From contig JAQGEQ010000263.1 in assembly GCA_034620365.1 (NCBI GenBank), positions 1,116,001 to 1,180,000 on the forward strand: a stretch of DNA of 64,000 bases, given 5' to 3'. The position numbers and the translations under genes were made by a program. The stretch comes from Pegea sp. RAD2-039 (lineage: Eukaryota > Chordata > Thaliacea > Salpida > Salpidae). Of the stretch, positions 24,732 to 29,858 are shown one piece after another (positions within the stretch are counted from its first letter, which is position 1; each line of letters starts with the position of its first letter). Below the pieces are notes generated by a model. It was not told where the DNA came from and made no database searches. It saw only the letters and a list, made by a program, of their open reading frames with translations.

Positions 24732-27700
24732 ATGATTAAATTGGTGAATTTTATTGGCATAACTTTTGTTTGTTTTCTCACTTTGCAAACAACTATATCA
24801 AAAAATGTTGCTGAACAGAAAGGTTATTTTTCCCCTGTTGCCCAGAACCTAATCAACTTACAGAATACTGATGCTATTAAGTACGACTTTACACTCAATG
24901 GTGAATATTGAAGACAAATTCTTAATTGTTCGTTTAATAAGGTATTTGTTTTAGGTGAAAAGAAAAAAGAAAATAATGATTTGGTTCAGCGGCATCATTT
25001 AAATATCAAAACCCCTCCTTCTAACTATAATGCCTATGGAACTAAACATAGAAATAGAAGTATCTCATATAAGTGAGTTTTCTAAGTTTTTGGGCCTAAA
25101 ATGAGGTTACACGGGAAGCGATGAAAAATTGTCACCAGCTACTAATTAATTTTATGATAAGTTAATTGAGATTAATAGCTTTTAATTATTTTACAGATTT
25201 GTCAGCTACACTCCACAAATGGATCCTTGCAGAACTCGAAATATCATCCGAAAAGCTTTTAGAACTTGGGAAGAACAAGTTGAGTTAAATTTTGTGGAAA
25301 AAAGTTCATCTGAAAGTGCAACTATTAACATAAAGTTTGGATTTGGTAAGTGTTAGAAGCTCCAAAACCACCTAGACCTTCAAAAGTGTTTGAATTTCTA
25401 TTTTATAAATCTTATCACTGTTAGCTTCTAATCATATAATAATTTGTAGAGTACCACGACTGCATGAGTGCCTTCATGGTCCCAACTCTAGCTCATGCAT
25501 TTTTTCCAACTATTTATAACAGTAAGACTAACATCCATTTTTTTGAGGGTATTAAGTGGAACCTTGGTGAGGGACCAAGTAAGAATAATTTTTAATTTAC
25601 TTTTTTGTTTGACTTCAGTGAAATTATTATTTAATTATTTTTACAAATTACCTTAAACATGAAAAACTTGGGCTTATTGGACAATGTTTCCTTGTAAAAC
25701 TTTGAAGCCAACCAATAGAAACTCAAGTTTTTGATTCATAGACATCAAATCTAAAGTTTGAATTTCTTTTAATTATCGTGAATATACTTTTAAAAGTTGA
25801 GGCTTTAAAATCTGACTGAGCTATAAAACAAAACGTAAAAGAATTATTACTAGCAATCTGATTATTTATCTGAAATTATTAAGCTATTTTAAAAGTAGAT
25901 ATTAATATTTAAACAAAAAGTTTTAATTTTAAATCTAAATTTTCAGAATAGATAAAATTTATAACTAACAAGCTTACTGTTAAACTTTCAAAAAATTAAC
26001 TTTAATTTTCTTGCACTTTAATAAACATATTGCTCTAATAATTCATCATTAGGATTTTTTCAATGTAAAGCGTTTTTTAATCTGATTCAAAAATATTTTC
26101 AAAAAATAAATGTATTTATTGGTGGTATTTATTTTTCAGTTTATGATACTTATATGGGCAATTCTAATGGAGCCCAATGCCACTTCCCTTTTAAATACAA
26201 AGAAACTCATTACACCAGTTGTACTACTGATGGCAGAAAAGATGGCTTAGAATGGTGTGCAACTACTGATGACTATGACAGAGATGGAAAGTTTGGATTA
26301 TGCCCAAGCGAGTGTAAGTTTACTTTAAATCAAGAATATTTTAGAAATTTGTTTATCACTTTATAAGCTTCAGTAAAAGCTATTAAAATTGTATTACAAA
26401 TACATCAGAAAAAATTAAAAATAAAATATAGTTGTTAAAATTGTTGTTATTAAATCGTGAAACACTTTTTTAGTACTTTTTACTTATGGCGGAAATGGTG
26501 GAGGTCAACCTTGTACGTTCCCTTTTACCTTTCTCGGTAAAACCTACAACAATTGTACAACATATGGAAGAAGAGACCACTACAACTGGTGTGCTACTAC
26601 TTCAAACTACGATACTGATAAAAAATGGGGTTACTGTCCGCATCGGAGTAATAAAAGTTAGTTTCTCAACTCTTAAAGTCCTTATAATGTTATAATTTTC
26701 AAACTATGGAGTAATAGTACCACTGTCATGTTGCTGCTTTAAGAGAAGCAAAGGCTATGGGAGTAAACAGACAGAAAATTCAATAGGAGAAAAAGCAATT
26801 AGGTCTAGGTAAATTTGTCCCATTAGTTCTGGTAGTCAGTTCTAGGACAGGAAAAAGTAAACCCGTCGACTTTGATGTCACTGTCCCAGGTCACTTGGTA
26901 ATGTATCTAAAAAATGAGAGTTTTTCAAATCAAATAACTTTGAAGCCATTTACACATATATGAAGGAAGTATATAAAAATATACTTTTCAAACAGTTCTA
27001 TAGCAATGGAGGTAGAAGATGACATTTAAAGCTAAAACCACGCTTCTCCATATAGGTGATCTAGGGTTTCCAAAGTGACAGCAGCACCTTGCAGCAAAAA
27101 AAATTAAACTTATCTTTGCTAGAAAACTTATTGATTACTTTTGTCTGAATTTGTAGATTCATGTCATTTTCCTTTCAAGTTTTTGGGTAAAGAATATCAT
27201 GAATGTACGAGCGATGGTCGAACTGATGGAGCAAAATGGTGTTCAAAAACTGAAAATTATGATATTGATCATTCATGGGAATTGTGTGAAGGAGGCTACA
27301 GTCTTTACTGGGTTGGTGTTCATGAGATAGGACATACTATTGGGTTGGATCATTCATATGATAGATCGGCTGTCATGTATTTTCAGTGAGTTTGTTTTAT
27401 AAATGTTTAGCGACTCTTATGCAAGTTTTACAAAATACTCATTTTAGTTTTTACTTTTATCTCACTTCCGTCATTCACATTTCAATCACAAATTTATTAA
27501 GAAGTTATTTTCTACTTTGAATCATCTGTCTGAATTTTTTAGCTGCATTAAACTTCAGTTTTGCAAATTACCAATAAGTGGCTTTGTTAGTGACGCAGCT
27601 GAATTACTCCCAAGCTTTTCCAAATGTTACTAGCAGAGGAGCTTTTAATTATCTAGAAACTAAACCGACCAACTAGTATTTAAAAAATTTTCTCTTTACC

Positions 27701-29858
27701 TAAAAAGATTTTTAGTATCACAAATCAAATATTCATCACGTTACCAGACTAATAACATTTGATAGTTGTTAATTTGTCTGATTAATTCCCTTTTTTTGAG
27801 TAGATATGCATACAAAGGGAACTCACCCTTACCACAAGATGATATTAATGGAGCAGTTAAGCTGTATGGAAGACGAATCTCAAACCTTCCTCCTTTAAGA
27901 TTAGAAACCTGCGACGGAAGTTTACCGAATCGTTCTAATAGAAAAACACCTTTAGTTTCTACCTCCAAACCAACAACAACAATACCAACAGAAACTACTC
28001 CTGTAACTGGTGAGTAACAACTTTGAATCCTTTTTATTCTTGTCTTTGAAAACCAACCAGTAATAAAAAGTAATCTAATTTATTATTTGTTTATCTTTCA
28101 ATTAATTTATCTGATGTTTTTTTGACATCTTTTCTATAATCTTAGGATCCTCTGAAAGTGTCTGCTCATTTTCTTCAATTGATGCTGCTACCTACTCAGA
28201 TTCAGAAATTCTTATTTTCAAGGTTCCTTAGAAGTTTTTAACATCTTTAGTTTTTATAGATGCTTATGAGACTACCTTAGTAATTGTTGAATGATTAATA
28301 GGATCAACAGTTTTGGCGGATAAAAGTTCATGATAATTTTTATCGGAAAGAACCAAAGATTATTTCTTATCAATGGCCAGATGGTCCTAAAACGGTCGAT
28401 GCAGTTTATAAGAAAAAGTCTGATAACAACTTTGTCTTATTTAAAGGTAAAAGTAAATGAAACGTTTGCACTAGCTAAATTCTTATATGTCTACCTTAAA
28501 CTAAATTTGTGATTAATTTTACAAACGGTGATTTGTCACTAATCAATACTTATGAGTTTGTGATATCAAAGCTAATGGAGGTTAAAATAAATTCTATTTT
28601 ATTGGTCATAATCCAAAATTTCCATTAATTAGACTTAATTAAATCAAGATAAAAAGCTGAAAGTTACAACAAGATTATATCATGTACTTAAACATCGAGT
28701 CTATTAGATAAAAAATTATACATTTAATGTCTTCTACTTAGTATTTTTAAAGCCTAAAAGATTTTTTAATTAATTTTCATTCATAGTTTTATTTATCAAA
28801 TCAATTTTATCAATATTTTGATTCTATCTTTGGCTTGTAAATTATAATTATGAAAATTGAATGTCTAGAAAATCGATTTTGGATATATCATAACTCTCAA
28901 TTAGTTACTGGGTACCCAAAATATCTTACTGAGTTGGGCTTTGATTCAAAAGTTAGAAAAGTGTATGCTGCAGTTTCGTGGATGGATGGAGATTCGAAAG
29001 AAAAAACAAGATTTATTACTGACAGTGGTTCTTACATGTAAGTCAAACTTCAAAGTTTAAATTAAACAATTAAATAGTTTCAAGTCTCATCTTCAGAATC
29101 TAAATCCTTCAGTTAAGATTCAAGTTAGTAGATAAGGAATGAGACGTTTAGTTTATCTGCAATAAATCTGTCAAACTTAATTCTTTTATTTATTTAAATC
29201 AATGATAAAAATATAAATCCGCTTGGTACACTGTAAGTTTATCTTATAGACATCTATAAGAGATAAAAGTATTGAGTTTGTTGGCTAAGGGTGCTTAGTA
29301 GTTGATGGTTGTACCTTGATAGTAGCTCATGTAAAAACCAAGTAGCTTGCCAACTTATTTTCGGGAAGCGTACTTTTTACAAAAATTTCACTAAATTGTT
29401 GTACATTTGTTTAAAATATTTCTTTTGATTATGTAGTTATGATGAAACTTTGAAGGAGCTGAAATTTGAGGGAACTACTTACAATTTTGATGCTATTATG
29501 GAAGATCATGATAATACAGGTTAGATTTGACTGCAAATATTAATTTTTTTATAATTTCAAATTAAGACGCAACTTGTAACAGTTAACATCAACAATTCCG
29601 TAAAAGCAATGTTTATATTGGATAAGTAAAAACTATTATTGATAAGCTATTAATCTTTACCTAAGACTTATTTTCATATCAAAATCATTCATATCAAAAA
29701 ATATTAAAAAGTGATATTAGTGAAAAGATTTTCAAATTAAATTTATTTTTCTTCTAGAAAACTTGGTTTTTATACATTCTAGTCGAGTCCATATAGTAAA
29801 CAAGCTCAAATTAACGATTATCGGAGTTTATGAATTAGCAAATTATTTAAATTGCTAA
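24732..29858 (+). CDS. Gelatinase-type matrix metalloproteinase (FN2 repeats + hemopexin)
   Basis: This is a secreted zinc endopeptidase of the extracellular matrix. Thirteen exons are read: 24732-24900, 24955-25072, 25197-25345, 25450-25578, 26140-26313, 26474-26647, 27157-27385, 27804-28009, 28146-28222, 28302-28446, 28869-29037, 29437-29519 and 29758-29858. They total 1923 nt (640 residues). A signal peptide is followed by a short pro-region of about 60 residues. The catalytic fold includes LAHAFFP and IHFFEG. Three fibronectin type II repeats with four cysteines each lie at about 189-246, 247-304 and 305-350. The zinc site [12 protein letters not shown] is at 359-370 with Met-turn SAVMY. 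A Thr/Pro hinge precedes a hemopexin domain whose first Cys456 and last residue Cys640 can form the usual disulfide. This order is that of vertebrate MMP-2 and MMP-9. The cysteine-switch PRCGxPD is absent. Confidence 0.93.
26140..26647 (+). other. Two symmetric 174-nt fibronectin type II exons
   Basis: Exons 26140-26313 and 26474-26647 are each exactly 174 nt, each bounded by phase-1 introns, and each encodes one complete FN2 repeat (CHFPF...SCTTDG...WCATT...GLCP and CTFPF...NCTTYG...WCATT...GYCP). The third repeat shares exon 27157-27385 with the zinc-binding helix. Symmetric exons explain how such repeats can be duplicated or shuffled without a frameshift. Confidence 0.9.
26648..27156 (+). 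other. Intron 6 of the metalloproteinase, with GC-richer patch
   Basis: The intron part at about 26700-27100 is less AT-rich than other introns and has protein-free, repeat-like character. CACTGTCATGTTGCTGC near 26720 has a weak inverted counterpart near 27075-27087. It might be an old transposon, but no terminal repeats or coding remnant could be established. Confidence 0.25.

Follow-up and report, generated by a model that had tools for sequence, protein, structure and literature searches.

The window analysed here, a stretch of 64,000 nucleotides (27.7% GC) from contig JAQGEQ010000263.1 of Pegea sp. RAD2-039, carries on its forward strand, at positions 24732-29858, a gene for a matrix metalloproteinase (MMP) whose catalytic domain is interrupted by three fibronectin type II (FN2) repeats. 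Accounts of FN2-bearing MMPs usually name vertebrate MMP-2 and MMP-9. We spliced the gene by hand into 13 coding exons, which encode 643 residues without a stop and are separated by introns that all follow the GT-AG rule. A spliced-alignment script given this protein as query returned identical exon borders, which is a consistency check and not independent evidence. The gene is made up of the following parts.

24732-24900, + strand: coding exon 1, with the ATG, a hydrophobic N-terminus (probable signal peptide, inferred from sequence) and the start of the propeptide
24955-25072, + strand: exon 2, remaining propeptide with the basic run KHRNR; the cysteine of PRCG is absent
25197-25345, + strand: exon 3 (149 bp), first half of the catalytic domain
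25450-25578, + strand: exon 4 (129 bp), catalytic domain as far as the FN2 insertion site (WNLGEGP)
26140-26313, + strand: exon 5 (174 bp, phase 1-1), first FN2 repeat (26178-26303 by Pfam)
26474-26656, + strand: exon 6 (183 bp, phase 1-1), second FN2 repeat (26512-26637 by Pfam)
27157-27385, + strand: exon 7 (229 bp), third FN2 repeat (27162-27287) together with the active-site helix and the Met-turn, the motif [11 protein letters not shown] lying at 27321-27353
27804-28009, + strand: exon 8, end of the catalytic domain and Thr-rich hinge
28146-28222, 28302-28446, 28869-29037, 29437-29519 and 29758-29858, + strand: exons 9-13, hemopexin domain, terminal cysteine and stop TAA

In the Pfam search of the spliced protein, three FN2 repeats (2.8e-51), Peptidase_M10 (PF00413, 9.6e-33) and hemopexin (PF00045, 1.5e-12) each scored above their cut-offs. 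In the profile search of the genome, where the cut-off was 22.2 bits, the repeats scored 70.4, 68.2 and 65.4, which excludes chance matches. The hydrophobic N-terminus is followed by a matrixin domain split by the three repeats, the active site ([12 protein letters not shown] at 27318-27353), the hinge and the hemopexin domain. The HExxHxxGxxH motif, the Met-turn methionine (in SAVMYF) and all 12 FN2 cysteines are kept; by inspection, the hemopexin domain has one cysteine at its start (ESVCSF) and another as the last residue, a pair that probably forms a disulfide. Splicing and Pfam thus bear out the original prediction, which had described three FN2 repeats, an active-site motif, a hinge and a hemopexin domain with paired terminal cysteines. 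A scan for bacterial-type promoters upstream of the gene gave four sites against 3.2 expected, which amounts to no signal. The gene is real, comes from a tunicate and is intact as far as can be judged from its sequence; its product is probably secreted. Neither the absence of a cysteine switch nor the family described below had been mentioned in the original prediction.

The tunicate source is indicated by a second locus in the assembly. On one strand of contig C14, a cellulose-synthase-type glycosyltransferase (CesA; PF13632 5.8e-17, PF03552 1.1e-7) is followed downstream by a GH6 domain (35 bits, cut-off 27) with hydrophobic segments in between, and these exons probably form one gene. The CesA-GH6 pair is a hallmark of tunicates. 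By these neighbouring exons on one strand the host is an invertebrate chordate, and the earlier description of it as a probable invertebrate was right. A rotifer source had also been considered, but a spliced-leader pattern of bdelloids gave no match. A search for COX1 likewise gave none, and the assembly may lack mitochondrial DNA.

The window gene belongs to a family. An exon-by-exon search of the genome (105.7 Mb in 387 contigs) returned 59 FN2 and 50 matrixin matches; the window and 20 further stretches cover 58 of the FN2 matches, the one on C36 being left out. Twelve further genes were modelled, namely C32:1.05 Mb, one on C20, two on C29, five in tandem on C80, C80:133 kb and two on C128, so that the family is spread over five contigs. 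No clear disabling lesion was seen in the modelled parts of 11 of the 13 genes, the window gene among them; ten of these 11 have three FN2 repeats, and seven sit in two tandem arrays. The C80:133 kb gene (G000:C80:130001-138000) has two repeats, a phase-1 intron directly before the active-site exon and no hemopexin domain within the fetched 8 kb. Several models carry limits of their own: in both C29 genes the modelled hinge contains a stop, removable by a possible short intron (checked for one gene of the pair); in C32:1.05 Mb the Met-turn methionine is missing and the model of exon 4 is doubtful; the first exons of the C80 and C20 models are not pinned; and the C20 and C32:1.05 Mb models are without the last cysteine of the second repeat, perhaps through a splice error. 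The two C128 genes, 73 kb apart and 96.4% identical over 6.5 kb, have in-frame stops in common and are gelatinase pseudogenes. Identity reaches 97.2% over 7.9 kb among the C80 copies and is 99.1% over 7.0 kb in the C29 pair, which makes the duplications recent unless haplotypes were kept apart in the assembly.

Compared with solved structures by phmmer, the window protein matched human MMP-2 best (gelatinase A, 1ck7; 344.5 bits, 1.4e-101), followed by MMP-9 (gelatinase B, 1l6j; 292.7 bits, 6.6e-86). It is like both in having three FN2 repeats at an equal place, HExxHxxGxxH, a hinge and a hemopexin domain, and the linker between the first and second repeats is similar; it differs from both in the absence of the cysteine switch, a shorter linker between the second and third repeats and extra cysteines in the catalytic domain. 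Over 312 aligned residues of the catalytic domain and repeats, it is 46.8% identical to human MMP2 and 47.4% to MMP9, which are 65.3% identical to each other in this region. The genes of the C80 cluster are 52-54% identical to the human pair, and the family as a whole ranges from 45 to 54%.

A catalytic-domain tree from which the repeats had been left out was built from 23 rows: seven tunicate FN2-MMPs out of the 11 free of lesions, six further MMPs of the tunicate and ten from mammals. The seven tunicate FN2-MMPs formed one clade (100/99), which joined MMP2 and MMP9 with support of 97/93 and in 194 of 200 bootstrap trees, and joined the other tunicate MMPs in none of the 200. The grouping with MMP2/9 was found in 177 of 200 trees under a simpler model, in 193 without the two C32 genes and in 183 without the three long tunicate rows. 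In an earlier catalytic tree with six human MMPs, placement on the MMP2/9/13 side was weak (48/87; approximately unbiased (AU) test of tunicate plus MMP2/9, p 0.331), and it was the addition of four mammalian rows that raised the support to 97/93.

A number of results weigh against a common origin with MMP2/9. When about 12 junction columns around the insert were removed, the grouping was recovered in 0 of 200 trees, rising to 117 of 200 when the two fast-evolving C32 genes were removed as well; the cut took about 20 residues in the tunicate row that has no tryptophan anchor (t_C21_899), and without these columns the grouping was not rejected (AU p 0.459). Much of the MMP2/9 signal therefore comes from the residues on either side of the insert; these may date from the same event or may reflect a common structural need. 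Nor was a grouping of the tunicate FN2-MMPs with the tunicate's other MMPs rejected (AU p 0.09, 0.21 and 0.0975). In the full tree the tunicate clade grouped with MMP2 to the exclusion of MMP9 (161 of 200; 85/71), a position not expected of a lineage that is sister to both enzymes. For the repeats, the tree (42 columns) gave no resolved grouping and, across five genes, the identical order scored 1.737, below the 1.752 of the best other common order, with 1369 of 7776 independent orders scoring as well or better. One-to-one orthology of repeats 1, 2 and 3 with those of MMP2/9 was accordingly set aside, as that order scores no better than others. Finally, nine matrixin loci lie on stretches with no FN2 match nearby, and in all six that were read a phase-1 intron separates the strand that precedes the active site from the active-site helix, at the place of the FN2 block (the acceptor at C6:1288 kb is not pinned).

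This last observation bears on how the repeats could have been acquired. In the window gene a phase-1 intron precedes each repeat, and since these borders match the phase-1 intron of the six MMPs devoid of FN2, insertion of FN2 exons that keeps the frame is possible. The same intron makes a second, independent insertion possible, in which a tunicate MMP gained its repeats by exon shuffling into the same old site. Such convergence would find its material in the many FN2 exons of this genome, among them two sets of four next to the C80 cluster, and it accords with the lack of grouping among the repeats and with the loss of the catalytic link once the junction columns are gone. However, it needs three modules to have arrived twice at one site, with a similar linker and similar junction residues; the catalytic tree (97/93) speaks against it, as does the fact that tunicate repeats 2 and 3 are on average slightly more similar to MMP2/9 repeats than to those of fibronectin. 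We consider convergence unlikely, and a single origin with MMP2/9 is the favoured reading. The original prediction had held that, outside vertebrates, the architecture must either be older than usually described or have arisen twice, and had proposed trees of the catalytic domain and of each repeat: the former tree favours the first alternative, whereas its dependence on the junction columns, the lack of resolution among the repeats and the feasibility of a second insertion keep the other alive.

The two opposed sets of FN2 exons lie in C80:660001-670000 (4364-5302, + strand; 6427-7476, - strand) next to the five-copy gelatinase cluster, and are possibly a source or a product of FN2 exon exchange. 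A search for FN1 gave two matches, both on contigs without an FN2 match. A search for TIMP gave none, but its controls did not register anywhere either, so that this negative carries no weight.

A vertebrate origin by horizontal transfer or contamination has a precedent in the available text of PMC8467561, where a vertebrate-like MMP2 transcript labelled sea cucumber was judged to be contamination, and the weak placement of the tunicate clade with MMP2 apart from MMP9 would agree with it. Against this stand the 13 exons and AT-rich introns of the window gene, its contig of 1.76 Mb, the dispersal of the family over five contigs and the 45-54% identity to human MMP2/9. In every model with three repeats, moreover, the third repeat and the active site share one exon. 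In vertebrate MMP2 and MMP9 they are on separate exons. Transfer or contamination is thus very improbable. For MMP9, two papers give 13 exons, with no lengths stated in the parts available.

Taken together, these results make it probable that the window holds a divergent representative of a tunicate gelatinase-type MMP family, which has one origin with MMP-2 and MMP-9 in the tunicate-vertebrate ancestor. In this ancestor, FN2 modules bordered by phase-1 introns would have entered a pre-existing phase-1 intron before the MMP active-site helix, and the gene would then have multiplied in the tunicate by dispersed and tandem duplication. The FN2 triplet is predicted to bind denatured collagen and present it to the HExxHxxGxxH zinc centre, with the hemopexin domain adding contacts with substrate or partner. 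Most likely the enzyme works like the vertebrate gelatinases, its activity, substrate and regulation being what we infer from this likeness.

Regulation is where the window gene departs from its relatives. Its exon 2 aligns with the exon that bears PRCG in nine of the 11 lesion-free family genes, where the cysteine switch is kept in the exon preceding the catalytic domain; none of RCG, PRC or PxCG occurs in the three + strand frames of 23001-25400. Its sister in the catalytic tree (98/94), C32:1.05 Mb, reads PRKG at this position. The window gene has thus lost the switch, and because PRCG is one of the features that define the class we file it as a switch-less variant and not as a canonical gelatinase. 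Furin sites call for an arginine at P4. Furin-type activation between KHRNR and the following S was discarded, as no such arginine is seen there by eye. In the absence of the switch, latency may be achieved via something else, or the enzyme may be active once folded or trimmed.

Other cysteines also set the family apart from MMP2 and MMP9. In 11 of 11 lesion-free genes, but in neither human enzyme, one is found a little ahead of the TRN/VRN stretch, close to where the catalytic domain begins. Another replaces the aspartate of HGDG, a ligand of the structural zinc, in nine of the 11 (the exceptions being C32:1.05 Mb and C80:133 kb), a change not found in MMP2 or MMP9.

The loss of the switch could also mean that the window gene is a decaying, functionless copy. 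Its branch in the catalytic tree is long (0.75 changes per column), its sister is the poorly modelled gene without the Met-turn methionine, and two other members are pseudogenes; the HGDG replacement might be added, although family members that bear the switch share it. Decay is nevertheless improbable given 13 exons free of stops, GT-AG splice sites, an intact HExxHxxGxxH motif and Met-turn methionine, and the retention of 12 of 12 FN2 cysteines and of the hemopexin cysteines at both ends. We tentatively propose, as a possibility short of an even chance, that the tunicate lineage expanded the gelatinase into a large family in which at least the window gene gave up latency by the cysteine switch yet kept catalytic motif, FN2 triplet and hemopexin domain intact, and that FN2-guided collagen cleavage is older than vertebrates and separable from the standard zymogen. 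If so, this would be a gelatinase under a control other than the cysteine switch. Genes with and without the switch in one genome provide a natural experiment in how MMPs are kept latent.

The surprise is smaller than the original prediction had stated, since tunicates and vertebrates are sister groups and a 'gelatinase MMP-9like' has been cited for Ciona robusta. This earlier mention, in the excerpts of PMC7017325 and PMC7023376, tempers novelty; it and CiMMP2/9/13, which cleaves collagens I and IV and has a role in ovulation (PMC6786877, in part), resemble the present genes as tunicate MMPs likened to MMP-9 or to MMP-2/9/13. The word 'fibronectin' is absent from the main text of the paper on CiMMP2/9/13. 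PMC7017325 speaks in the same excerpt of one gelatinase among six Ciona MMPs, against the large family here. Portions of two further papers group Ciona MMPe with MMP2, 7, 9 and 20 (PMC1867822) and map FN2 on MMPs including those of Ciona (PMC3566077). Among the titles and abstract beginnings of open-licence papers among the matches listed, none describes FN2-bearing tunicate MMPs. Gelatinases, in the sense of FN2-bearing MMPs, are reported absent from echinoderms in the available part of PMC8467561. With Ciona and amphioxus as outgroups, the main text of PMC11788884 gives domain pairs specific to vertebrates for two MMPs, MMP23B and MMP24, and names no other 'Matrix metallopeptidase', a hint, though not proof, that the pair of fn2 and Peptidase_M10 is not vertebrate-specific there.

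Fibronectin of tunicates and vertebrates has FN2 modules in common with these enzymes and no protease domain; that of Ciona is described, in the text at hand, with two FN2 modules among FN1, FN3 and Ig. A gain of FN2-bearing fibronectin in the tunicate-vertebrate ancestor has been proposed (PMC5006582, in part), and an ancestral FN2-MMP would fit a gain at the same point. A further point against our reading is that putative FN2 domains appear in planarian proteins in the available part of PMC6211748, so that FN2 modules may, contrary to PMC5006582, reach beyond chordates. If the origin was single, the present gene-level evidence, introns included, moves the FN2-MMP architecture back to at least the tunicate-vertebrate ancestor, and the phase-1 intron gives a testable route of exon shuffling.

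FN2 modules also occur outside the MMPs in this genome: at C264:371001-380500 (1570-6696, + strand), a single frame of 1709 residues contains, by Pfam, a thrombospondin type 1 stretch along with five kringles and three FN2 repeats, an unusual mix of kringle and FN2, which are related modules. Ten homeodomain stretches were read, among which Cdx, Xlox, Islet and two posterior-Hox-like ones on one contig (C235:97051 and 119215, on opposite strands and 22 kb apart) were named by eye; no central Hox was seen among the ten. In the window itself, a kinesin motor exon with long coiled-coil frames, CENP-E-like by eye, lies at about 16120-22800 (- strand), and a 748-codon open frame resembling KRIT1, with the KRIT1 NUDIX region, ankyrin and FERM, at 39126-41372 (+ strand).

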